A stretch of DNA of 64,000 nt from Rhodanobacter sp. DHG33. Lineage in GTDB: Bacteria > Pseudomonadota > Gammaproteobacteria > Xanthomonadales > Rhodanobacteraceae. The notes under the pieces were generated by a model. It saw only the letters and a list, made by a program, of their open reading frames with translations. It was not told where the DNA came from and did not search any database. Below, piece after piece: positions 27,688-64,000 of the stretch. How positions within the stretch are numbered: position 1 is the stretch's first letter; each line of letters starts with the position of its first letter. The stretch covers positions 380,757 through 444,756 of the forward strand of contig NZ_JACYXM010000006.1 in assembly GCF_014843005.1 (NCBI RefSeq), read 5' to 3'. A program made the position numbers and the translations under genes.

Positions 27688-27766
27688 GTCAAGAACATCC
27701 GCAGGCTGCGAGGGCGCAGGTGCCCGCGGATATCCAGAAGCGGTTCATTCCTTGAGAGGGGAGATC

Positions 27767-30700
27767 ATGAAATCGGGCACCAACATTCCATTGCGAAGAA
27801 CAGGTTTGGCCGCAACGCTGGGCCTGCTGCTCGCATCTACGGCGGCCTATGGCCAGTCCACCACCAGCAGCATCTTTGGCCACGTGCCGGTGCAGGCGGG
27901 CGAAAGCATCACGGTAAGTAACGGCTCGGGCCTGACCCGCACGGTCGGCATCGACAGCCAGGGCCGTTACGCGGCCAACCAACTGCCCATCGGTACCTAC
28001 ACCGTCAGCCTGATGCTCAACGGCCAGGTCATCCAGCAGCGCAACAACGTCTTGCTGCAGGTGGGCATCGGTTCGGACGTTTCATTCACCGAACAGGGCG
28101 CCTCCGCGGCCAGCGAGACGAACGCGAAGCAGCTTTCCGGCGTGAGCGTATCGGCTAATGCGATACCGCCCATCGACGTAAGCTCGGTGGATTCGCGCAC
28201 GGTGCTCACCGCAGACCAGTTGGCCAAGCTGCCGTTGGCGCACACGGCGGAAGCGGTAGCGTTGCTGGCGCCGGCGACCAACCTTGGTGCGGGCGGCGCG
28301 GCCAGCACCACGGGCGAGCCGCTGATCAGCTTCGGCGGCTCGTCGTCCACCGAGAACGCGTATTACCTCAACGGTTTCAATACCACTGATCCCAACATCG
28401 CCGAAGGCGGCATCACTCTGCCGTACGGTTCGATCGACCAGGAAGAGGTCTACACCGGCGGCTACAGCGCACAGTACGGCCGCAGCGACGGCGGTGTACT
28501 CAACATGATCGGCAAGAGCGGCACCAACGACTGGCACTTCGGCGGCCAGTTCCTCTACGAGCCGTCGTCGATGGTGGCGAGCCAGGACAGTACCTACTAC
28601 GCCAACGGCCTGCCGCCGTCGCCCGTGGCCGGTCGCCTGTACGACCCGAGGAACCAGAACAGCACCTGGTCGTCCGTCTACGATCTGTACGTGGGCGGCC
28701 CGATCATCCAGGACAAGCTGTTCTTCTTCGCTTCGGCGGAAATGACCCACACCGAAGGAAACTCGGTCAACAGCGTCGAGTCCGGCACCGATTCGCACTA
28801 CAAGGACACGCTGCCCAAGTGGTACGCCAAGGTGAACTGGAACATCACCGACAACAATCTGCTCGAACTGACGGGCGCGTCGGAAAAGAGCCTGACCAGC
28901 GGCACGGTCTACAACTACGACTACAACAGCTTGAGCGACAATGGCTTCAAGGCCTACGCCAACGACACCAAACATGGTGGTGACCTGTGGCTGGCGAAGT
29001 TCACCAGCTACATCACGGACAAGCTGACCCTGACTGCCATGTACGGCAGCATGAAAACGCGCAGCTACAGCGAGAATCCGGCCTACGATCCGGATGTGAC
29101 CTACGTTGGCACCTACACGCAGCAGAACCCGGCGTTGAACGGCGGCACGCCGATCACCAACAACCAGACGGTCACCGAGATCAACAACCCGGGCCAGAAC
29201 TTCGTGACCACCAACCTGCGTGTGGCGCTGACCTACACCTTGGGTGACCACACGATCACGGCGGGTATCGACAATCTGCGCACGGCGGCCAGGGAACAGG
29301 ACGAGCTGACCTCGGGGCCGGGCGGTTACCAGTGGATCTACGGTTATACGAAGACCCCGACCCAGCCGCTGTATCCCTCGCTTGGCGTGGGCCCCACGGC
29401 CGATTACCCGAACGGCGCGACCGGCTACTACGCGTTCAAGTACATCTTCAACCAGGGCGGCAACCTGTTCTCCACGGAGAACGCCGAGTACATCGAGGAC
29501 AACTGGCAGGTCAACGACCGCTTCCTGCTGTCCATGGGTCTGCGCGACGACGACTTCACCAACACCAATGCCAGCGCGCTTGCCTACATGCGGCAGACCA
29601 AGCCGCAATGGGCGCCGCGCCTGGGCTTCAGCTGGGACGTGTTCGGCGACAGCTCGTTCAAGGTGTACGGCAATGCCGGCCGCTACTTCCTCGGTTCGCC
29701 GATCGCCCCGGGCGATCCGGCCAACGGGTATGTGGCCACCTCGCAGTACTACACGTACAGCGGCATCGCGGCCGACGGCACGCCTACCGGCCTGACGCAG
29801 ATGTCGCAGCCGGTGTCGCCCAACGGCGCCTATGGGCAGACGCCCGATCCGCGCACCATGACGGCGACCAGCCTGAAGGCCGAGGACCAGGACGAGTTCA
29901 TGCTCGGCTTCCAGAAGACGGCCGGTCCGAACTGGGTCTATGGCGCCAAGATCACTCGGCGCATCCTGCGGCACGTGATCGACGACTGGTGCGATGTCGG
30001 GGCGCTGGTGAACAAGGCGGCTTCGGAAGGCATCACCGACGTCAACACCGACACCTGCTACTACGTCAACCCGGGCGAGGCCAACACCTTCGCGGTGCAG
30101 GACCCGAGCGGCGCCTTCCACAGCGTGACGATGTCCCAGGCCGACTTCAACTTCCCGCATGCCGTGCGTCGCTACTACGGACTGGAGACCTTCCTGGAGC
30201 ATCCGTTCGACGGCAAGTGGTATGGCAGGGTCAGCTACACCTTCTCGCGCAGCTACGGCAACAGCGAGGGCGAGGGCCAATCCGACATCCGCGCCATCGG
30301 CGGCACGCAGAACGAGGACTGGGATTTCCCGGAGCTGATGGTCTACGCCAACGGTCCGCAGGGCAACGATCACACTCACGTGCTCAAGGCCTACGGCTAC
30401 TACGCGATCACGCCCGAGTGGATGGTGTCGGCCAACCTCAACCTGACCTCGGGTGGCCCGAAGTACTGCCTGGGCTATTACGGGCCGCAGCAGAGCGACC
30501 CGGACGGCTACGGTTCCAACTACCACTGGTGCAACGGCCAGCCGTCGCCGCCGGGGGCAACCGGACGCCTGCCGTGGATGAAGGAGCTTGATCTGGGCCT
30601 CCACTATCGCCCGGCATTCGCCGACCACAAGCTGTCCCTGAACGTGGACGTGTTCAACGTGTTCAACGGCCAGGCTCCGCTCAATCTCGATGCCGATTAC

Positions 30701-30799
30701 AACGGCAACAGCGGCGGCACGCCGAACCCGCTCTACGGCACGCCGATGGTGCTGCAGCAGCCGCGCTACGTGCGATTCGGTGTGACTTACGACTACTGA
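27767..30799 (+). CDS. TonB-dependent receptor with N-terminal carboxypeptidase-regulatory-like domain (copy 1)
   Basis: The 1010-residue outer-membrane transporter imports a ligand, probably an oligosaccharide, with energy from TonB-ExbBD. A signal peptide ends near AAYGQ (residue 29). A CarboxypepD_reg-like beta-sandwich follows (residues about 30-110), then a plug domain (GGSSSTENAYYLNGFNTTDP, GYSAQYGRSDGGVLNMIGKS) and a 22-strand-type barrel ending VRFGVTYDY with the terminal aromatic. The start has a GAGAGGGGAG SD. A paralogue follows. No SusD-like lipoprotein is present, as usual for this lineage. Confidence 0.93.
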   Translation: MKSGTNIPLRRTGLAATLGLLLASTAAYGQSTTSSIFGHVPVQAGESITVSNGSGLTRTVGIDSQGRYAANQLPIGTYTVSLMLNGQVIQQRNNVLLQVGIGSDVSFTEQGASAASETNAKQLSGVSVSANAIPPIDVSSVDSRTVLTADQLAKLPLAHTAEAVALLAPATNLGAGGAASTTGEPLISFGGSSSTENAYYLNGFNTTDPNIAEGGITLPYGSIDQEEVYTGGYSAQYGRSDGGVLNMIGKSGTNDWHFGGQFLYEPSSMVASQDSTYYANGLPPSPVAGRLYDPRNQNSTWSSVYDLYVGGPIIQDKLFFFASAEMTHTEGNSVNSVESGTDSHYKDTLPKWYAKVNWNITDNNLLELTGASEKSLTSGTVYNYDYNSLSDNGFKAYANDTKHGGDLWLAKFTSYITDKLTLTAMYGSMKTRSYSENPAYDPDVTYVGTYTQQNPALNGGTPITNNQTVTEINNPGQNFVTTNLRVALTYTLGDHTITAGIDNLRTAAREQDELTSGPGGYQWIYGYTKTPTQPLYPSLGVGPTADYPNGATGYYAFKYIFNQGGNLFSTENAEYIEDNWQVNDRFLLSMGLRDDDFTNTNASALAYMRQTKPQWAPRLGFSWDVFGDSSFKVYGNAGRYFLGSPIAPGDPANGYVATSQYYTYSGIAADGTPTGLTQMSQPVSPNGAYGQTPDPRTMTATSLKAEDQDEFMLGFQKTAGPNWVYGAKITRRILRHVIDDWCDVGALVNKAASEGITDVNTDTCYYVNPGEANTFAVQDPSGAFHSVTMSQADFNFPHAVRRYYGLETFLEHPFDGKWYGRVSYTFSRSYGNSEGEGQSDIRAIGGTQNEDWDFPELMVYANGPQGNDHTHVLKAYGYYAITPEWMVSANLNLTSGGPKYCLGYYGPQQSDPDGYGSNYHWCNGQPSPPGATGRLPWMKELDLGLHYRPAFADHKLSLNVDVFNVFNGQAPLNLDADYNGNSGGTPNPLYGTPMVLQQPRYVRFGVTYDY

Positions 30800-30839
30800 T
30801 CGCGGCAACTTGCGACCCTGATGAGGGAAACGGCGTATT

Positions 30840-30867
30840 CGCGCCGTCCGGACATCCGGACGGCGCG
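30840..30867 (+). terminator. Strong hairpin between the two TonB receptors
   Basis: Thirteen-base-pair perfect arms CGCGCCGTCCGGA/TCCGGACGGCGCG with a minimal 2-base loop lie 40 bases after the first receptor stop. The rest of the 282-base gap holds repeated CGAAT/CGGAAT words that could be regulatory. Confidence 0.6.
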
Positions 30868-31081
30868 GGTATGCAATCGATCTGAAAGAAGTTGCGAATT
30901 TCCGAATCGGGCCGTTACGCGACGAATCGATTTCGGAATCCGAACGGAATCACCTGACAACGGCGGGATGGCCAACTGGCCGACGGCATGCACTGTCGAT
31001 CGGTGCTCGGACGATTCGTGGAATGCCAGCGCAAACGCCTGTGCATATCCGTTGAGATTCATTTCCTGGGAGGGATGCTTG

Positions 31082-34000
31082 ATGACGATCGACACGAACA
31101 TCTTGTTGCGGAAGACCGGCCTGGCCACGGCGCTCGGCTTGCTGCTTGCGTCCACGGCGGCGTACGGCCAATCCACCACCAGCAGCATCTATGGCCATGT
31201 GCCGGCGCAGGCTGGCGAAACCGTTGTACTGAACAATGGTGCAGGCCTGACGCGTACCGTCAACGTCGATAACCAAGGTCGTTACAACGCCGCGCAGTTG
31301 CCGGTCGGCACGTATTCGGTAGCGCTGATGCGCGACGGCCAGGTCATTCAGCGCCGCGACAACGTAATGCTCAAAGTAGGCGTGGGTGTCGAGATCTCTT
31401 TCGCCGAGGCTGCTGCTGCGAGCTCGGCGAATGCGAAGCAGTTGTCAGGCGTGAACGTGTCGGCCAATGCCGTGCCGCCCATCGACGTGAGCTCGGTGGA
31501 CTCGCGCACGGTCATCACGTCGCAGGAGCTGGCCAGGCTGCCGCTGGGGCGCACTGCGGAGGCCGCGGCCCTGCTGGCGCCGGGCGCAGTCACGGCCGCC
31601 GGCGGCGCAAGCAGCCAGACCGGCGAGCCGCTGGTCAGCTTCGGCGGTTCCTCGTCGACGGAGAACGCGTATTACATCAACGGCTTCAATACCACCGATC
31701 CGTATGGCGCCAAGGGCGGTATTTCCCTGCCGTACGGCTCCATCGACCAAGAGGAAGCCTATACCGGCGGCTACAGCGCGCAGTACGGCCGCAGCGATGG
31801 CGGTGTGATCAACATGATCGGCAAGAGCGGCACCAACGATTGGCATTTCGGTGCCCAAGTGGTGTACGCGCCCGAGGACTGGCGCTCCAGCCAGGACGAT
31901 GCCTACTACATGAATGGCTTGCCGCCGAAGCCCGTGGCAGGGCGGCTGTACAACCCCAACAACCAGGACAACTACTGGAATTCCACCTACGACGTATACA
32001 TAGGCGGCCCGCTCGTCAGGGACAAGCTGTTCGTCTTTGCATCGATGGAGGCCAACGACACCGGCGGCTACACGGTCAATCCCGTGACCTCGGGTACTTC
32101 GCTGCACTACAAAACCAACAACCCGAAGTGGTACGCCAAGATCAACTGGAACATCAACGACAGCAACTTGCTTGAGCTGACGGGCGCGTCCGAGAAGACC
32201 GAAACCACCGGCGCGTACTACTACTACGACTACAACGCCCTGAGCGACAAGAATTTCAAGAGCTTCGCCAACACCACCAAGCTGGGCGGCGACATGTGGT
32301 CGGCCAAGTACACCAGCTACATCACCGACAGCCTCACGTTCAATGCCACGTACGGCAAGATGACCACGGTGAACTACAGCGAGCAGCCGGGTTACAGCCC
32401 GGAATACACCTACATCGCCGACTACACGAACCAGAACCCGACGCTCAACGGCGGCACGCCGATCGCCAATTCGCAGACCAATTCCACCATCGCCAACCCC
32501 GGCAAGAACTACAAGACCAGCAACCTGCGTCTGAGCCTGACCTACACGCTGGGTAGCCACACCATTACGGCCGGTATCGACAACCTGCGTTCCGCGGCCA
32601 ACAACCAGGCCAGCATCACCACCGGCCCGGGCTATTGGTGGGACTACGGCTACACCAACCAGCCGACATCGCCCATCACAGCCATTTCGGCGACGGGGCC
32701 GGTGACCGTGGGCCCCGTGGCCAACTACCCGGGCGGTGCCCCGGTCAATGGCACGAGCTACTACGTCACCAAGAACGTCAGCATCTCGGGCGCCAACCTG
32801 CTCACCACGCAGCGTGCCGAATACATCGAGGACAACTGGCAGGTGAGCGACCGCTGGCTGCTGTCGCTGGGCCTGCGCAACGACGCCTTCACCAACTACA
32901 ACGGCTCGGGCCAGCCCTACATGCGGCAGACTTCGCCACAATGGGCGCCGCGCCTCGGCTTCAGCTGGGATGTGTACGGCGACGGTACGTTCAAGGTATA
33001 CGGCAACGCGGGCCGCTACTACCTGGGTCAGCCGCTCGCGCCCGGCGGCGTCGCCAACGGCATCCTGAGCACCACTCAGTACTTCACCTACACCGGCATC
33101 GCGGCCAACGGCACGCCCACCGGGCTGACGCAGATTTCGCCGCTGACTTCGGCGAACAGCTTCTTCGGACAAACGCCCGATCCGCGCACGCTCACGGCGC
33201 AGAACATCAAGGCGCAGGACCAGGACGAGTTCATCCTCGGCTTCACCAAGACGGCCGGCGACAAATGGGTCTACGGCTCCAAGTTCACCCGTCGCCTGAT
33301 CCGCCATGTCCTGGACGATTACTGTGACGGTACGACCGTAGCGGCTTATGCGGCCGCGGAGGGCATCACCGACGTCAACAGCACCGCCTGCTATTACATC
33401 AATCCGGGGCAGGCCAACACGTTTGCCGTGGAAGATCCGAACGGCGTGTTCCACGACGTGACGCTCTCCAACGCCGACATGCAGTTCCCGCACGCGGTAC
33501 GCCGCTACTACGCACTGGAAAATTTTCTGGAGCATCCGTTCGACGGCAAGTGGTACGCCAAGATCAGCTACACCTTCTCGCGCAGCTACGGCAACAGCGA
33601 AGGGCAAGGGCAGTCCGACATCCGCGCCATCGGCGGCATCCAGAACGAGGACTGGGATTACCCGTCGCTGATGGTCTACGCCGGCGGTCCGCAGGGTAAC
33701 GACCATACCCATCAGATCAAGGCGTTCGGCTACTACCAGCTCACGCCGGAATGGCTGGTCTCGGGCAACCTGAGCCTCATTTCGGGTGGCCCGAAGTACT
33801 GCCTCGGCATGTACGGCACCGATCCGTACAACACGGCCATCAACCCGGCCACTGGTGCGGCCTACAACGATCCGGCCGGTTACGGCTCCAACTACCACTG
33901 GTGCAACGGCCAGCCGTCGCCGCCGGGCGCGAACGGGCGTCTGCCGTGGATGAAGCAGGTGGATTTGGGCGTGCAATACCGGCCGGCGTTCGCGGACCAC

Positions 34001-34171
34001 AAGCTGGGCTTCCACCTGGACGTGTTCAACGTGTTCAATGGTCAGGCGCCGCTCAACGTGTGGGCGCAGATGTACCAGGGCCACGACGGCACGCTGAATC
34101 CGCTCTACGGTACGCCGATGGTCTTCCAGCAGCCGCGCTACGTGCGCATGAGCGTCACCTACGACTATTGA
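31082..34171 (+). CDS. TonB-dependent receptor, paralogue of the preceding gene (copy 2)
   Basis: The 1029-residue receptor repeats the architecture of copy 1: the same signal (LGLLLASTAAYGQSTTSSI), regulatory-like domain, plug (GGSSSTENAYYINGFNTTDP) and a barrel ending VRMSVTYDY. Long blocks are identical (SAQYGRSDGGV, TFSRSYGNSEG, YGSNYHWCNGQPSPPGA), so it is a tandem duplicate. The two differ mainly in barrel loops such as residues 430-470 and 530-560, the parts that bind ligand. The ATG at 31082 has GGGAGGG upstream. The two probably take related but different oligosaccharides. Confidence 0.93.
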   Translation: MTIDTNILLRKTGLATALGLLLASTAAYGQSTTSSIYGHVPAQAGETVVLNNGAGLTRTVNVDNQGRYNAAQLPVGTYSVALMRDGQVIQRRDNVMLKVGVGVEISFAEAAAASSANAKQLSGVNVSANAVPPIDVSSVDSRTVITSQELARLPLGRTAEAAALLAPGAVTAAGGASSQTGEPLVSFGGSSSTENAYYINGFNTTDPYGAKGGISLPYGSIDQEEAYTGGYSAQYGRSDGGVINMIGKSGTNDWHFGAQVVYAPEDWRSSQDDAYYMNGLPPKPVAGRLYNPNNQDNYWNSTYDVYIGGPLVRDKLFVFASMEANDTGGYTVNPVTSGTSLHYKTNNPKWYAKINWNINDSNLLELTGASEKTETTGAYYYYDYNALSDKNFKSFANTTKLGGDMWSAKYTSYITDSLTFNATYGKMTTVNYSEQPGYSPEYTYIADYTNQNPTLNGGTPIANSQTNSTIANPGKNYKTSNLRLSLTYTLGSHTITAGIDNLRSAANNQASITTGPGYWWDYGYTNQPTSPITAISATGPVTVGPVANYPGGAPVNGTSYYVTKNVSISGANLLTTQRAEYIEDNWQVSDRWLLSLGLRNDAFTNYNGSGQPYMRQTSPQWAPRLGFSWDVYGDGTFKVYGNAGRYYLGQPLAPGGVANGILSTTQYFTYTGIAANGTPTGLTQISPLTSANSFFGQTPDPRTLTAQNIKAQDQDEFILGFTKTAGDKWVYGSKFTRRLIRHVLDDYCDGTTVAAYAAAEGITDVNSTACYYINPGQANTFAVEDPNGVFHDVTLSNADMQFPHAVRRYYALENFLEHPFDGKWYAKISYTFSRSYGNSEGQGQSDIRAIGGIQNEDWDYPSLMVYAGGPQGNDHTHQIKAFGYYQLTPEWLVSGNLSLISGGPKYCLGMYGTDPYNTAINPATGAAYNDPAGYGSNYHWCNGQPSPPGANGRLPWMKQVDLGVQYRPAFADHKLGFHLDVFNVFNGQAPLNVWAQMYQGHDGTLNPLYGTPMVFQQPRYVRMSVTYDY

Positions 34172-34289: not shown

Positions 34290-36353
34290 ATGGCAGCATC
34301 GCACCCGCATACCCTTTGTTCGTCGCGCATGAGCGTGTTGGCTTCTTGCCTGCTCGCCGTGCTGGCGGGTTTCGGCACTGCTCATGCCGAGGACAGCGTG
34401 ACCACCGGCAAGCTGGTGCTTGAGCCTGGCAGCGCGGTGTTCGCCGACCAGCAGGGTGCGGAGAGTTTCGGCAATGCCGCGATCGAGGCGAGCTGGAAGC
34501 TGGACGGCAAGCATCTCGTCGACATGACGGTGACCGACCGCGTGCACAGCCGTACGTTCGCGGTGTCCGCACCGTTCGCGCTGGCGATGGCCGACGGCAG
34601 CACGATCAAGGCTTCCGACATGAACCTGCAGACGGCGCCGCACGTGGTGGCGTTGCCGGTGGATGCGCAGGCTTCGCGCTACTCCTCGCGTATCCCCGGC
34701 AAGGCGGTGGAGGCCAGTTTCGCCGACGCGGACGGCCGCTTCCGCGTGGACTGGCGGCTCGTGCAGCGCGACGGCTCGCCCTACCTGCGCGAGGAGGTGA
34801 GCATCACCGCGCTGAAGCAGGACGAGAAGATCGCCAAGGTGTCGCTGCTGCAATCGAAGGTGGATGCCCCTGAGGTAGTAGGCACGGTGAACGGCTCGCC
34901 CATCGTCGACGGCGACGTCTACCTCGGCTTCGAGAATCCGCTGTCCGACAGCACGGCGTACCACAACCTGGCGAAGCTCACGCTGTCGCGCACGCTGCCG
35001 CTGGAGCAGGGCAAGACGGTGGATTATTCGGCGGTGGTGGGCGTGGTGCGCGACGGCCAGCTGCGCCGCGATTTCAACAACTACGTCGAGCGCGAGCGCG
35101 CGCATCCGTACCGCACCTTCCTGCACTACAACTCCTGGTACGACATCGGCTACTTCACGCCGTACACCGAGGCGGAGGCGCTGGACCGCATCAACACCTT
35201 CGGCGAGGAGCTGCACGTCAAGCGTGGCGTGACCTTGGATTCGTTCCTGTTCGACGACGGCTGGGATGACCGCAGCGGCGCATGGAACTTCAGCAAGGAT
35301 TTCCCGCGCGGCTTCGTGCCCCTGCGCGATGCGGCCGCGAAGTACGGCGCCGCGCCGGGCATCTGGCTGTCGCCATGGGGCGGCTACGGCAAGCCGCACG
35401 ACGAGCGCATCAAGAACGGCAAGGCGGCCGGCTACGAGATCATCGACGACGGCCTCGCGCTGTCCGGTCCGAAGTACTACCCGCGCTTCCATCAGGTCGT
35501 GATGGACATGATCGACAAGCAGGGCATCAACCAGTTCAAGTTCGACGGCACCGGCAACGTCAGCAGCGTGTTCCCCGGCAGCCGCTTCGACAGCGACTTC
35601 GCCGCGGCGATCCAGCTGATCAGCGACATCCGCAAGGACAAGCCCAACACCTTCATCAACCTCACCACCGGCACCTGGGCCTCGCCGTTCTGGCTGCGCT
35701 ACGCCGACACGATCTGGCGCGACGGCGAAGACGACTGGTACACCGGCGTGGGCACGATGCGCGAGCAGTGGATCACCTACCGCGACCAGCAGACCTACCA
35801 GAACATCGTGCTGAAGGGGCCGCTGTTCCCGATCGACTCGCTGATGCTCCACGGCATCATCTACGCGCAGAAGAACCCGCGCCTCAACACCGACCCGGGC
35901 CACGACTTCGCCAACGAAGTGCGCTCCTACTTCGCCACCGGCACCGAGCTGCAGGAGATGTACATCACGCCGTCGCTGCTCACGCCGCAAGACTGGGACA
36001 CGCTGGCCGAGGGCGCGAAGTGGTCGCGCGCCAACGCCGACGTGCTGCGCGACTCGCACTGGATCGGCGGTGATCCCGGCCGCCTGGACGTCTACGGCTG
36101 GGCTGCCTGGTCGCCGAAGAAGGCCATCGTCACCTTCCGCAATCCGGACGACAAGCCGCAGCTTGCGGTGGTCGACCTGCAGCGCCAGCTGCAGCTCCCG
36201 CCGGGTGTTGCGCGTCGTTTCAGCGTGCACGACGTGTGGAAGAACGGCGGCGCCGATGTGCCGAAGGCGCTGGATGCCGACCACACAAGCACGATCACGC
36301 TGGCGCCCTTCGAGGTGCTGACGCTGGAGCTGACGCCGGCGAGTGGAGGCTAA
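34290..36353 (+). CDS. Exported clan GH-D-like glycosidase (GH36/GH27-like; alpha-galactosidase or alpha-N-acetylgalactosaminidase candidate)
   Basis: The 687-residue protein has a signal peptide (cleavage near TAHAED, about residue 34) and an N-terminal beta-sandwich. A TIM barrel follows with NSWYDIGYF, DSFLFDDGWDD and GIWLSPWGGYG, and FKFDGTGN, whose Asp419 is the likely nucleophile by comparison with GH27/36 K-x-D motifs. An acid/base Asp is probably in TIWRDGEDDW (478-482). A C-terminal sandwich ends APFEVLTLEL. The exact family is not certain. An alpha-Gal or alpha-GalNAc substrate would suit the neighbouring aga-type genes. GAGAGG precedes the ATG. Confidence 0.7.
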   Translation: MAASHPHTLCSSRMSVLASCLLAVLAGFGTAHAEDSVTTGKLVLEPGSAVFADQQGAESFGNAAIEASWKLDGKHLVDMTVTDRVHSRTFAVSAPFALAMADGSTIKASDMNLQTAPHVVALPVDAQASRYSSRIPGKAVEASFADADGRFRVDWRLVQRDGSPYLREEVSITALKQDEKIAKVSLLQSKVDAPEVVGTVNGSPIVDGDVYLGFENPLSDSTAYHNLAKLTLSRTLPLEQGKTVDYSAVVGVVRDGQLRRDFNNYVERERAHPYRTFLHYNSWYDIGYFTPYTEAEALDRINTFGEELHVKRGVTLDSFLFDDGWDDRSGAWNFSKDFPRGFVPLRDAAAKYGAAPGIWLSPWGGYGKPHDERIKNGKAAGYEIIDDGLALSGPKYYPRFHQVVMDMIDKQGINQFKFDGTGNVSSVFPGSRFDSDFAAAIQLISDIRKDKPNTFINLTTGTWASPFWLRYADTIWRDGEDDWYTGVGTMREQWITYRDQQTYQNIVLKGPLFPIDSLMLHGIIYAQKNPRLNTDPGHDFANEVRSYFATGTELQEMYITPSLLTPQDWDTLAEGAKWSRANADVLRDSHWIGGDPGRLDVYGWAAWSPKKAIVTFRNPDDKPQLAVVDLQRQLQLPPGVARRFSVHDVWKNGGADVPKALDADHTSTITLAPFEVLTLELTPASGG

Positions 36354-36793
36354 ACATGACCGAAACAACGTGCGGGTACACGTCGCATGACCCGGCGGCG
36401 TGCGCGCGGGGCATTTGGTGAATCCCTTTGTCGTACTCGATGCGTTCGGGCATGGCGCGCACCGAATCAGTGCGCTCGGTTTTGCACGCAATCGCCCTAT
36501 GCACGCGCCGGGATGTAGCGAAATTTGGATCGAATGAACGACATTTGCAGAAGGGGAAATGATTGTGGGCAGATGTTGAGCAAGCTAATGCAATCCTTCA
36601 GCAGCTGTGCTGAGTGATGTCCGGTTCGTGGTCGTCCGTAACTGCTGACTGCCACGAAATGGCGAGTCGAAGGCAAACGTTCTTGCGTATATTTTAATTT
36701 TCCATCATTCGGAAGTGGCTCTTCCGCTTGCTTATTGATGGGGAGTGGTGGTTCGGCTGTTTTCATTTTCTTCAAGCAGAGAGGAGAGTGGCT
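36354..36793. other. 440-base gap with falling G+C
   Basis: No gene found. A possible terminator for the glycosidase (GCGCAC-CGAATCA-GTGCGC at 36457-36475, then GGTTTT) is near the left end. From about 36500 the sequence becomes AT-richer, including ATATTTTAATTTT near 36690, which may supply a promoter for the next gene. It looks like the left border of an acquired segment. Confidence 0.5.
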
Positions 36794-37666
36794 ATGAAAT
36801 GCTTTGCAAGAAATACCAGGGTCGAGCGCAAAATGAGTTTTCACATCGGTCTTCTTTTGCTGGCGCTCTGCGTCTTCTATTTTCCCGGGACTCGTGTTCG
36901 TGCTGAAACCTGGTGCAGTTCGTCTTCGTCTACGAATTGCGCGATCGGTGGAATTGTGAGCGTGAACTACGCTGTCTCCAATGCGCCGCCGCAAGGACTT
37001 ACCTCCATCACTTTTCCGTTCACGGTGTTCAGCATTCCCGCGGCGAACGGTTATTTCTTTGCGCAGCAGTTCTATTTCATCAACACGAATAATGAATCGG
37101 GTCAAGGGGCCTACATCGGAATCCAGCCTGCAGGCAACGGCACGAACAATGCGCACTTCAGCTTCTTTGGGACGGGTTCCAGTTCCGTCAACATGGCCAA
37201 CTGCTCCACGGGAGCCGACGGCGGCAACGGAACGACATGCCAGTTGACCGTGCAGTTTGCGGTGGGGCACCAATACAACTTGACGGTTTATCGGGATGCC
37301 AAGAAAACCTCCGTGTGGCACGGAGAAATTGTCGATAACACGGCATGCCAAGTGACTACCGCTCGGGGCGAACGGGACGCCTCCACGGTCTGCACGCCCA
37401 CGGAAATCGGCGCGTGGAATATTGGCTATACAACAGCCCTGGCCAGCAATGGTGTTGGGTTCGTTGAATACTTCCCGTCTTCGGTACCCACGGGATGCAG
37501 TGGCCTTCCGTACGCTGACGTTGAATTTGGGGCGCCTTCCACCCCTGACGGACTGACCTCGACCGTCAATGGCGAATCTTCGTACGGTGGGTGCCTGGGT
37601 TCGGTGAATTACTCCGGATCCCAGAGTACCCACAATTTGTGGGTGCGTGCGGAAACGGGCTGGTAA
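36794..37666 (+). CDS. Exported low-G+C protein, possibly DUF3472-like
   Basis: The 290-residue product has a signal peptide (long hydrophobic stretch around residues 16-33, cleavage near RVRAE). The rest is an all-beta, Asn/Ser/Thr/Gly-rich extracellular domain with an AYIGIQPAG strand and six to eight Cys suited to disulfides. The spacing of AYIGIQ, a W-H-G-E segment and later Gly-Cys pairs recalls DUF3472 proteins, but I am not sure. Codon use is clearly more AT-rich than its neighbours, a sign of transfer. GAGGAGAG precedes the ATG. It lies between intact and broken glycosidase genes. Confidence 0.7.
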   Translation: MKCFARNTRVERKMSFHIGLLLLALCVFYFPGTRVRAETWCSSSSSTNCAIGGIVSVNYAVSNAPPQGLTSITFPFTVFSIPAANGYFFAQQFYFINTNNESGQGAYIGIQPAGNGTNNAHFSFFGTGSSSVNMANCSTGADGGNGTTCQLTVQFAVGHQYNLTVYRDAKKTSVWHGEIVDNTACQVTTARGERDASTVCTPTEIGAWNIGYTTALASNGVGFVEYFPSSVPTGCSGLPYADVEFGAPSTPDGLTSTVNGESSYGGCLGSVNYSGSQSTHNLWVRAETGW

Positions 37667-37723
37667 TGGTTGCATTTCGTTGATCGACGGCATGCCGGGT
37701 CACCATTGGCGATGGCCCGGCAT

Positions 37724-37783
37724 GCGACTTCCTTCAAGCTGGTGCCGTTCGAAGTCCTGACGCTGAATCTGATGCCAGATTGA
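37724..37783 (+). pseudogene. Relic of a glycosidase C-terminus (like the 34290-36353 gene)
   Basis: Translation gives TSFKLVPFEVLTLNLMPD and then a stop. This matches the end of the intact upstream glycosidase (STITLAPFEVLTLELTPA) at nearly every position. The upstream frame stays open but soon loses similarity. It looks like the last 20 codons of a second copy whose body has been deleted. Confidence 0.65.
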
Positions 37784-37817
37784 TGGCGACGCATCCGATA
37801 TGACGATGCGTCGCCAT
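37783..37817 (+). repeat. Perfect 13-bp inverted repeat
   Basis: ATGGCGACGCATC and GATGCGTCGCCAT flank a 9-base loop directly after the relic stop codon. It is probably the former terminator of the deleted glycosidase gene. There is no T tract. Confidence 0.6.
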
Positions 37818-37859
37818 GGGAATCGCGGCTTCCCTGCGGCATCAGTGCATTCGCACCGA

Positions 37860-38051
37860 CGCCGACACCGTTGCCGAGGCCGGAATTTCCAGTCGCAGCC
37901 GTTGCGGCGACCACCGGGCATGGGCACGAACCGCTGGCGCATCGTCGCCGGCCGCTATACGGTCGAGTTAGGCCATGCGTCGCGTGATTTCTCCTTGCGT
38001 GACGGCACCGATGCCGAGACGGCAGGCCATGAGTACAACCGCTTTCAATGA
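37860..38051 (+). pseudogene. Relic resembling the C-terminal Fn3-like domain of a GH3 glucosidase
   Basis: The frame ending at 38051 reads NRWRIVAGRYTVELGHASRD before FSLRDGTDAE. This is like the end of GH3 beta-glucosidases (W-x-V-x-P-G-x-Y-x-V-x-V-G-x-S-S-R-D). No start, signal or catalytic part precedes it, and the piece before residue N is Arg-rich and not homologous. It ends 25 bases before the GH79 gene. I read it as the leftover tail of a deleted GH3 gene that once preceded GH79. Confidence 0.6.
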
Positions 38052-62081: not shown

Positions 62082-64000
62082 CTACTGCCCCAATGGCATG
62101 CCCTGGGCAGGGGCCTGGGCATGGATGTAAGACGGCAGTTGATTGGCTTGCTGGATCTGATGGATGGAATGCTGCGGGTCGGGCGAGGGCGTCTTCACGT
62201 CCACGGCGACCGGAGGCCGGGGCTCGGTTGTGGTCATGAAGTGCATGATGCCGCGCTGCTCGTCGTAGGCAATGGGGCCGATGTTGGCGTGGGTGATGCC
62301 GCCGGTGTGGCAGGCTGCGGTGAATTGCAGCAGGCGTTGTTCGCTGGCGTCCGGGATGCGCTCGTGCAGTTCCCGGTAAAGCGCGTGATTGGGACTTGCC
62401 GCATGGCGCGGATCGTCATGCGTATAGGGCGATCCCGTCGCAGGGCGGGAAGGCGGGTGCTGCGGTTGCGAGACGGTCGCAGGCGCCGCGTCGTGCCCGA
62501 ACCACTGCCCCGGATGTGTCAGCTTGTCGTAAGCGTGGCCGACCGCGTGCTCGGCAACATCGGCGCCGTGTGACACCGCTTGTTTGGTGTTGTTGTAGGC
62601 CTGCGAGGCCGCGTGCTCGGCGGTGACGATGCCTTGCGAGACGGCTTGCCGGGTATGGTCGTAAGCCTTCGCGGCGGTGTGCTCGGCAGCCTGCACGCCA
62701 TGGGTCACGGCTTGTCGGGTGTCGTCATAGGCCGTGGTGGCCGTGTGTTTGGCTACATCGATGCCGTGCGACACGGCCTGTTTGGCATGGTCGTAGGTCT
62801 GTTCGGCAGCATGGCCGGCGTTTTCGACTGCCCGATACGTACCGACGGCGCCGTTGACGAGATGGATGACACCTGCCTGGACCTCGGGGCTGTGGATGGC
62901 TGCGTCGATGGTTCGTGCGGCACCGTGTGTTCCGCGTTCGATCGCCTGCTGGGCCGTGTGCAGGCTGTTCGCGGCGAGGTCGCCTACGGCATGTGCCACT
63001 TGTCCCTGCAAATGCGCGGCCTCACCGGCGATGGCGCCTGCCAGCGGTGCGATAGGATTGACGGGCGCCATCGCGTCGCCAGCCTTATGCGCTGTCGTCG
63101 CCATATGCTCGAACTGCGACTGCACATATTGGCCACCCGCGTGCGCGACGTTGGTGCCTGTTTGCAGCCCATGTTCCGCACCCAGTACGACACCGTTCTG
63201 CTCGACCTTCTTCTGGATGAGTGGATCCACGTTCACCGTCAGGTATTCGTCCAGCTGCTTGCGGATGTCCGGTGGAAGTTGCGCACGGGCGTCATGGCCT
63301 TGGGCTTGGCGCAACGCTTCGGACAACTCGCCGCGCTCGCGATAGACATCGTTGCGATAGGCGTCGATGGCGGCCTTGTTGTCGGTGTAGTTTTTCTCGT
63401 ATTGCGTTATGAGCTTCGGATCCAGCACGCTTGTCTGGTTGCTGTGCGGAGGCGGTGCGAAATGGGTGACGCTGTGATCGCCCAGGCTCATGGCGAGGAA
63501 AGGATTGGGCGGCTGCGCGCCGGCCGGTGCATCCAGATAGCGGCCGGCTTGCATGCTCTTGAGATCGTCTGGACTGGCGAGCGTTACTACCGATCCAACA
63601 TGATGATTGGCAGCGCTGACTACATCGCCGGCCATCACATAATCGGTGAGCTGACATCCTGGGGCGGGAGGCCCATCGGTCAGGCCTGCTGCGCCATAGG
63701 CGTTATAGGTCGAACCCCGCAGGCCGAATTTTGCGGCTTCGATTTCCGCCAACGTGCCGCCGAGCGAATGACCGGCAACCGTGATTTGATCCTTGGATAT
63801 CCCGTGTCTGGCTGCCTTATCAATCATTTCGGCAGTGAATTTGTCAGCCGCCGATTTTTGTGGGTTGACTGCATCTCGCACCATCGTGGCGTCTACGGCA
63901 ATATCTTGAATTGAAGTAAGGGTGTGACCCGTGATGTCTTTAATAGCAGGATCGGTACCTCGATAAGCGATGATTATTTCGCCTGTATCCCTGCTGCGGT
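62082..64000 (-). CDS. Lipase-domain effector with XVIPCD-like C-terminus (partial, right end missing)
   Basis: The frame runs off the window edge, so the true start is not seen; 639 codons are visible. The N-terminal part is a class 3 lipase: IIIAYRGTDP, then VAGHSLGGTLAE with the nucleophile Ser at 63765-63767. A long helical middle with four 22-residue repeats and a Pro-rich linker follow. The last about 110 residues (DPRHAASPNHALYRELHERI to the Gln-rich tail) look like an XVIPCD, the signal read by VirD4 of the Xanthomonas-type T4SS. It would be injected into rival bacteria to hydrolyse phospholipid. A partner immunity protein is expected beyond the edge. Confidence 0.82.
   Translation of the reverse strand, partial: RSRDTGEIIIAYRGTDPAIKDITGHTLTSIQDIAVDATMVRDAVNPQKSAADKFTAEMIDKAARHGISKDQITVAGHSLGGTLAEIEAAKFGLRGSTYNAYGAAGLTDGPPAPGCQLTDYVMAGDVVSAANHHVGSVVTLASPDDLKSMQAGRYLDAPAGAQPPNPFLAMSLGDHSVTHFAPPPHSNQTSVLDPKLITQYEKNYTDNKAAIDAYRNDVYRERGELSEALRQAQGHDARAQLPPDIRKQLDEYLTVNVDPLIQKKVEQNGVVLGAEHGLQTGTNVAHAGGQYVQSQFEHMATTAHKAGDAMAPVNPIAPLAGAIAGEAAHLQGQVAHAVGDLAANSLHTAQQAIERGTHGAARTIDAAIHSPEVQAGVIHLVNGAVGTYRAVENAGHAAEQTYDHAKQAVSHGIDVAKHTATTAYDDTRQAVTHGVQAAEHTAAKAYDHTRQAVSQGIVTAEHAASQAYNNTKQAVSHGADVAEHAVGHAYDKLTHPGQWFGHDAAPATVSQPQHPPSRPATGSPYTHDDPRHAASPNHALYRELHERIPDASEQRLLQFTAACHTGGITHANIGPIAYDEQRGIMHFMTTTEPRPPVAVDVKTPSPDPQHSIHQIQQANQLPSYIHAQAPAQGMPLGQ
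62532..62795 (-). repeat. Four 66-base repeats (22 aa each) in the effector
   Basis: The units, in protein order, start YDHAKQAVSHG, YDDTRQAVTHG, YDHTRQAVSQG and YNNTKQAVSHG, each 22 residues with a later EH or KH and Ala pairs; a fifth begins YDKL and breaks. They form an amphipathic helical rod between lipase and XVIPCD parts. The 66-base period makes copy-number change by slippage or recombination likely. Confidence 0.9.

Follow-up and report, generated by a model that had tools for sequence, protein, structure and literature searches.

A lipase gene at the end of a 64,000-nucleotide stretch of the genome of the soil bacterium Rhodanobacter sp. DHG33 (contig NZ_JACYXM010000006.1, positions 380,757 to 444,756; hereafter the window) very likely encodes an effector of a Xanthomonas-type type IV secretion system (X-T4SS) with an upstream immunity gene, and its product ends in a domain that PF20410, the Pfam model of the XVIPCD delivery domain, misses. 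This domain, which we refer to as tail-2, is by profile comparison a divergent class homologous to XVIPCD, and in related genomes it is linked to a distinct clade of the coupling protein VirD4, which we refer to as VirD4-2. Taken as a whole, the gene probably specifies an antibacterial X-T4SS lipase that carries tail-2 as its secretion tag, is loaded by VirD4-2 and is countered by a lipoprotein. A previous sequence-only reading of the window had described a GHSLGG lipase, four 22-residue repeats and an XVIPCD-style C-terminus; its observation was confirmed, and its interpretation is partly supported by the results below.

Tail-2 is a divergent class homologous to XVIPCD

Tail-2 has the layout of an XVIPCD, with an HPxHALY-like start and a Q-rich end. 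Comparison of a profile of 56 tail-2 and tail-3 sequences (tail-3 is a related class that matches the tail-2 profile at 99.5%) with a profile of 89 XVIPCD sequences gave a probability of 97.1%, and the match was still 92% when the Q-rich ends were trimmed; in controls, 60 column shuffles reached at most 4.1%, the reversed profile 0.4%, and 11 VirD4 segments at most 0.2%. The homology spans about 100 columns, and the motif order is the same in both classes. Compared with XVIPCD (PF20410; structures 7mu9 and 7r6s), tail-2 has a shorter first part without the LDAxxxRxPD stretch and possesses its own motif, RIPDASExRLLQFTAACHxxxIT. The XVIPCD-style C-terminus proposed earlier therefore stands as to layout and homology, but the search with an XVIPCD model that had been named as its check found no match, and the domain belongs to a class of its own.

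We searched 197 genomes of the family with a six-row alignment of tail-2; because only a limited number of candidates was scored in each genome, all counts derived from these searches are lower bounds. Tail-2 was found in 29 genomes at 44 places, 34 of them at 81 bits or more (hereafter strong tail-2, held by 22 genomes). PF20410 was found in 59 of the 197 genomes, including 26 of the 29 with tail-2; the remaining three are G049, G125 and G104, in the last of which tail-2 is a 21-bit match. A strict peptide pattern identified 23 loci in a collection of 84,980 species, 22 of them in records of Rhodanobacter, Dyella or Luteibacter and one in Variovorax. Among the 20 of these proteins that were scanned with Pfam (all except L073, L075 and L080), the N-terminal domains comprise lipase, Tle1-like, glucosaminidase, GH19, VgrG3-like muramidase and peptidoglycan-binding domains, with no Pfam hit at E 0.001 in L078 and L072.

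The tails have also been exchanged and combined. Six tail-2 lipases group together in a tree built from 42 lipase N-domains (support of 99 in the Shimodaira–Hasegawa-like approximate likelihood-ratio test, SH-aLRT), and a wider group, also with SH-aLRT 99, adds the tail-2 lipase L011 together with L012 and L013, whose tails are XVIPCDs. Because tail-2 and XVIPCD-tailed lipases share this group, a tail was swapped inside a lipase lineage; the placement of L111, a remote lipase with tail-2, was unsure. An XVIPCD followed by tail-2 in one protein is found in L101, L102, L104, L114, L116, L117 and L118 of the VirD4-2 clade and in L122, and the same order recurs in five Luteibacter loci (L081, L083, L091, L092 and L094), some of whose genes are the same as in the preceding set. 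An 823-aa protein of the sister family (L177:6208-8679) has an XVIPCD match and then a C-terminal tail-3 match.

Tail-2 accompanies a separate clade of VirD4

When the same 197 genomes were queried with the VirD4 encoded here, 28 loci in 22 genomes reached at least 54% identity, and the others were at 47% or less. A VirD4 of the former kind is held by 21 of the 22 strong tail-2 genomes, and 27 of the 34 strong tail-2 genes have a virD4 within 10 kb, in 25 cases one of the VirD4-2 kind. We then compared 61 VirD4 stretches reaching up to 8 kb either side, namely our own, 27 others of VirD4-2 and 33 with other VirD4s. Tail-2 at more than 100 bits is present in 25 of the 28 VirD4-2 stretches versus 2 of the 33 others; these 33 were chosen rather than drawn, some of them because a weak tail lay near, and the genomes are related rather than independent, such that hypergeometric and Fisher statistics of the linkage are overstated. 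In a tree of 60 VirD4s (L151 was omitted), estimated by a short search without bootstrap, the 28 form one group with SH-aLRT 98.

The arrangement within these loci is regular. The effector lies on the strand of virD4 in all 25 and downstream of it in 24 (the effector of L108 precedes virD4, and that of L105 overlaps it), and the open reading frame (ORF) directly upstream of the effector is a candidate immunity gene throughout. A loose lipobox within the first 60 residues was found in only 9 of the 25 upstream ORFs, so we do not extend lipoprotein immunity to most of these loci. Distances between VirD4-2 proteins correlate with those between their tail-2 domains (r 0.58 over 25 loci, with 0 of 5000 permutations as high); within one genus r was 0.67 over 14 loci and fell to 0.40 over 12 when two near copies were removed, a value matched by 10 of 5000 permutations. 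The difference between as opposed to within VirD4 clades is large at residues 201-440 (0.42-0.54), which presumably include the all-alpha domain.

Ten genomes hold both VirD4 kinds (G047, G076, G081, G089, G101, G123, G133, G161, G178 and G185). The 11 canonical-VirD4 stretches compared from them contain XVIPCD proteins and no tail-2, whereas their VirD4-2 stretches carry tail-2, with the exception of L112 in G161. Among weaker tail-2 and tail-3 relatives in the sister family, VirD4 was present in 4 of 12 stretches (L173, L174, L175 and L181) and was not found in the other eight, some of which are ended by contig ends; nor was it found in another four stretches from the own family (L184-L187). 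The overlap between a tail-3 gene and virD4 is 4 bp in L153 and L154 and 31 bp in L127; in L122 the tail-3 gene follows virD4 at a distance of 16 bp. Such overlap or close trailing of a divergent virD4 (in these four loci and L175) suggests translational coupling of loader and cargo.

An ordinary machine with an unusual loader

Most relatives with a VirB4 of this type share 83-96% identity with the VirB4 of this locus; the value is 73-78% for four copies, and some copies with 37-42% are parts of other systems. The VirD4 of the locus is only 42-47% identical to the canonical X-T4SS VirD4 of the same relatives. With VirB4 conserved and VirD4 diverged, the machine is ordinary, unlike its loader. 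A VirB4 at 75% or more is present in 20 of the 22 strong tail-2 genomes. Unlike X-T4SS VirD4, VirD4-2 often has no VirB nearby and leads a pair of ORF and effector: blastp found no VirB1, 4, 6 or 11 in 23 of the 28 VirD4-2 stretches, while L002 (this locus) and L095-L097 sit inside a virB cluster and L105, from G049, has a 117-aa piece of VirB4. The Variovorax locus holds a complete cassette (L093:5144-9369) consisting of a VirD4 at 57% identity, a lipoprotein-like ORF and a Tle1-like protein with tail-2; its surroundings read like core genes, and its 18 kb gave no VirB1, 4, 6 or 11 match.

The effector protein and its repeat rod

The effector gene begins at L002:4923, 166 bases beyond the window end, and occupies G000:C40:442838-444922 (L002:2839-4923) when complete. 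Its product consists of a lipase domain, a long linker that holds the repeats, and tail-2 (Table 1). The GHSLGG motif is present as described, and its Ser134 is invariant together with Asp181 and His231 in all six aligned sequences (window plus five relatives); these residues may form the catalytic triad. When the window part of the protein was scanned, Lipase_3 (PF01764, 20.5 bits, cut-off 22) and Mbeg1-like (PF11187, 15.9 bits, cut-off 21.1) were matched below threshold, and the relatives L085 (29.1 bits) and L090 (25.9 bits) exceed the PF01764 cut-off. An NCBIfam scan returned SA1320_fam and PueAB alone, far under cut-off, and neither was accepted.

Table 1 Features of the effector gene in the window
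Feature	Position in window	Strand	Remarks
Effector gene	62082..64000	minus	runs off window end; 694 aa overall, GTG start
Lipase domain	63321..64000	minus	residues 1-282; first 166 bases outside window
Ser134	63765-63767		serine of GHSLGG
Asp181	63624-63626	minus	invariant 6/6
His231	63474-63476	minus	invariant 6/6
Repeat rod	62544..62807	minus	four 22-residue amphipathic repeats, residues 454-541
Tail-2	62085..62444	minus	divergent XVIPCD-class C-terminal domain, residues 575-694

The four repeats share a mean pairwise identity of 57%. At a lag of 22, residues 431-560 match themselves at 43 of 108 positions (z 11.3; maximum of 21 in 2000 shuffles), and on the DNA TRF reported a period of 66 with 3.6 copies and 68% matches at 62543-62781; a DNA repeat search with a minimum length of 30 reported none, missing the diverged 66-bp repeat. 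Lengths of 11, 18 and 29 residues each complete an integral number of helix turns. At 98.2 degrees per residue, the angle of 11 residues per three turns, the amphipathic moment is 0.357 compared with a maximum of 0.258 in 2000 shuffles, which is consistent with a helical rod.

The sequence-only reading had not known of such a regular rod in described effectors of this type; its novelty is weakened by strong repeat linkers (best lag z > 5) in 3 of 22 XVIPCD-tailed lipases, with a lag of 29 in L017 and L018 and of 33 in L022; the other linkers were weaker, and two more were too short to be included in the 22. Five tail-2 lipases were tested as well: lag 22 reached z > 7 in L006 and L007, lag 11 reached 4.1 in L008, and L009 and L011 showed no clear periodicity; a lag of 22 is best in L006 and L007 only and is weak in L029. 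The number of repeats, which the sequence-only reading had proposed to compare across strains, is kept at four in L072 but is lower in L073 and about one in L075, L080 and L085. The name Synu we take to denote synuclein, presumably a family of 11-residue amphipathic repeats. A domain of this name (CDD cl03193) is given in a figure legend on X-T4SS effectors (X-Tfes) in PMC6536674, which also counts against a unique rod.

X-Tfe lipases (Lipase3/DUF2974 plus XVIPCD) resemble this protein in several respects. The lipase N-domain is of the same family, with 39-47% identity to 24 XVIPCD-tailed relatives; a linker likewise separates lipase and delivery domain; and a lipoprotein gene likewise lies upstream in the virD4 stretches where one was detected. 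They differ in that the tail of this effector is missed by PF20410 and the VirD4 beside it belongs to another clade. Relatives of the lipase that carry canonical XVIPCDs adjoin virD4 in X-T4SS genomes, in agreement with the earlier statement that lipases are among the known effectors, and the text of PMC11253643 describes Stenotrophomonas maltophilia TfcA as a predicted lipase. Atypical type IV effector (T4E) proteins of X-T4SS bacteria are described in the text of PMC10989847 as lacking an XVIPCD; both they and our protein are T4E homologues in X-T4SS bacteria, but here a divergent homologue of the domain is present.

Candidate immunity gene and secretion locus

An immunity gene had been predicted upstream of the effector, just past the window, and the virB cluster and virD4 that adjoin it there bear out the proposed link to an X-T4SS. 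Beyond the window end, all on the same strand, are a lipoprotein gene, a frameshifted copy of it, virD4, a gene for a 420-aa effector and the virB cluster (virB6, 5, 4, 3, 2, 1, 11, 10, 9, 8 and a VirB7-like ORF), so that the strand reads virD4, lipoprotein (broken and intact copy) and lipase. The intact copy is a 199-aa ORF that has an ITGC lipobox and shares 4 bp with the start of the lipase gene, and ORFs 27-61% identical to it occur in other lipase loci; by position and sequence it is likely to be the immunity protein. The second copy (L002:5598-6218; G000:C40:445597-446217), between virD4 and the intact one, comprises two ORF pieces in different frames that are 51% and 74% identical to the intact copy. 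More than one lipoprotein-type ORF is likewise present in L100, L134 and L141.

The VirD4 of the locus matches T4SS-DNA_transf at 312.6 bits and on reading has a P-loop and two N-terminal hydrophobic stretches. Ten of the twelve machine genes were identified by Pfam (VirB1, 2, 3, 4, 6, 8, 9, 10, 11 and VirD4), with VirB5 and VirB7 assigned by position alone. The VirB7 candidate is a 245-aa ORF that has a lipobox-like LAAC and matches TcpQ, a domain we take to resemble N0, at a sub-threshold 19.7 bits (cut-off 27). ORFs of 968 and 360 aa that follow the cluster presumably resemble methionine synthase. The 420-aa peptidoglycan-binding protein carries a canonical XVIPCD (PF20410, 93.6 bits), the sole match above cut-off in its genome. 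Criteria for an X-T4SS in the text of PMC6536674 include a chromosomal location, a VirB7 with a C-terminal N0 domain, twelve VirB1-11/VirD4 genes and XVIPCD effectors; the cluster described here lies on a 571-kb contig, in keeping with a chromosomal location.

Alternative explanations

Several results weigh against a dedicated pairing of tail-2 with VirD4-2 and against the assignment of tail-2 to the XVIPCD class. PF20410 did not match the tail, either when the own genome was searched at E 10 or in hmmscan at E 1, and only 1 of 23 tail-2 members scanned singly touches it (E 0.049). Small alignments gave 43% for tail-2 against XVIPCD, too weak alone, which is why deeper alignments were used, and 60% for tail-3. 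A sequence search of the PDB with tail-2 returned no XVIPCD structure and two chance matches at E 10, while the XVIPCD profile does retrieve 7mu9, 7r6s and 9p3h. As to the pairing, 7 of the 34 strong tail-2 genes have no virD4 within 10 kb, tail-2 lies beside a VirD4 outside the clade in L122 and L124, no tail was found in the VirD4-2 loci L106 and L112, and L119 has a tail-3; VirD4 residues 521-560 also differ by 0.53, so the divergence extends beyond a single domain. No VirB4 was found at E 1e-100 in G038 and G049, and the best VirB4 of Variovorax is at 38%. G038, G049 and G066 hold VirD4-2 with tail-2 or tail-3 proteins and no VirB4 at this threshold; such sets may be remnants, or loaders served by another machine. 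Finally, in nine genomes with a VirB4 of the type present at this locus, VirD4-2 is the sole VirD4 found (G000, G022, G095, G117, G147, G052, G188, G125 and G163), and eight of them contain PF20410 effectors (one each in G000, G117, G147 and G163, two in G022, three in G095, five in G188 and nine in G052); in L002 and L095-L097 such an effector is directly beside VirD4-2. VirD4-2 may therefore load canonical effectors too, if these are delivered, and may read both tail classes, which argues against strict specificity.

One may postulate that tail-2 is an XVIPCD that has merely drifted and that any VirD4 of the X type can read it, in which case only lineage history and local gene clustering would tie it to VirD4-2. 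The homology of the two domains, the canonical effectors of VirD4-2-only genomes and the two tail-2 genes that accompany other VirD4s all fit this scenario, yet in the ten genomes with two VirD4 kinds tail-2 keeps to the VirD4-2 stretches (again excepting L112), and the entire cassette is present in Variovorax; we consider the scenario a serious one, although rather less probable than loading by VirD4-2. It is improbable that tail-2 is instead an extra module placed after the delivery domain, such as a chaperone site, a second toxin or a target-binding part. An internal XVIPCD does precede it in 7 of the 25 VirD4-2/tail-2 loci and in L122, but in the other 18, our own included, the tail-2 protein has no XVIPCD match above 25 bits, and tail-2 is itself C-terminal and homologous to XVIPCD. 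That the protein is a housekeeping or secreted lipase without a role in antagonism would suit its sub-threshold Pfam scores; this is very unlikely given the lipoprotein partner overlapping by 4 bp, the virD4 neighbour, the effector-type relatives and an N-terminus in which no signal peptide was recognized by eye. Least credible of all is a lipase effector (Tle type) of a type VI secretion system (T6SS), the competing identity raised in the sequence-only reading: Tle1-like catalytic domains do occur on other tail-2 proteins and TssC in 13 of the 22 strong tail-2 genomes, but TssC (PF05943) was not found at E 0.001 in the own genome or in eight others of the 22 (the search did not extend to VgrG, Hcp or PAAR), and the scanned upstream neighbours are T4SS parts or unmatched.

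Proposed mechanism and implications

The explanation we favor, loading of a tail-2 effector by VirD4-2, would operate as follows. The effector would be a phospholipase-type toxin joined by a long amphipathic helical linker to a C-terminal secretion tag; the neighbouring VirD4-2 would bind this tag and feed the toxin into an otherwise ordinary X-T4SS for secretion; the lipase would attack membrane lipid in the prey envelope, and the upstream lipoprotein would confer immunity. The rod perhaps lies on the membrane or acts as a thin, passable spacer.

A broader and more tentative proposal, to which we would give slightly less than even weight, is that coupling proteins are interchangeable. Portable cassettes, each combining virD4, an immunity gene and an effector whose tag class (tail-2 or tail-3) matches, might plug into the resident VirB machine as a second, partly separate loading code and move between genomes, even into Burkholderiales, with tags being exchanged or added in tandem on toxins. 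The literature covered, including PMC6536674, PMC10989847, PMC6759196, PMC10933484, PMC11253643 and PMC10432156 (figures, supplements and subscription papers being outside this scope), describes neither a second tail class nor orphan VirD4 cassettes, and nothing was found there on the pairing of tail-2 with VirD4-2. X-T4SS effectors are found by XVIPCD searches, and the PF20410 model misses those with tail-2. If VirD4-2 reads tail-2, these natural pairs would offer a set for studying cargo choice by a coupling protein, and one killing machine would be served by several loaders.

Other features of the window

Two adjacent large ORFs of similar sequence, both TonB-receptor-like, are followed by a glycoside-hydrolase-like ORF at window 27752-34171, the names being given from reading the sequence. 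The GC content is 0.584 at window 36001-38000, compared with 0.65-0.67 on either side.
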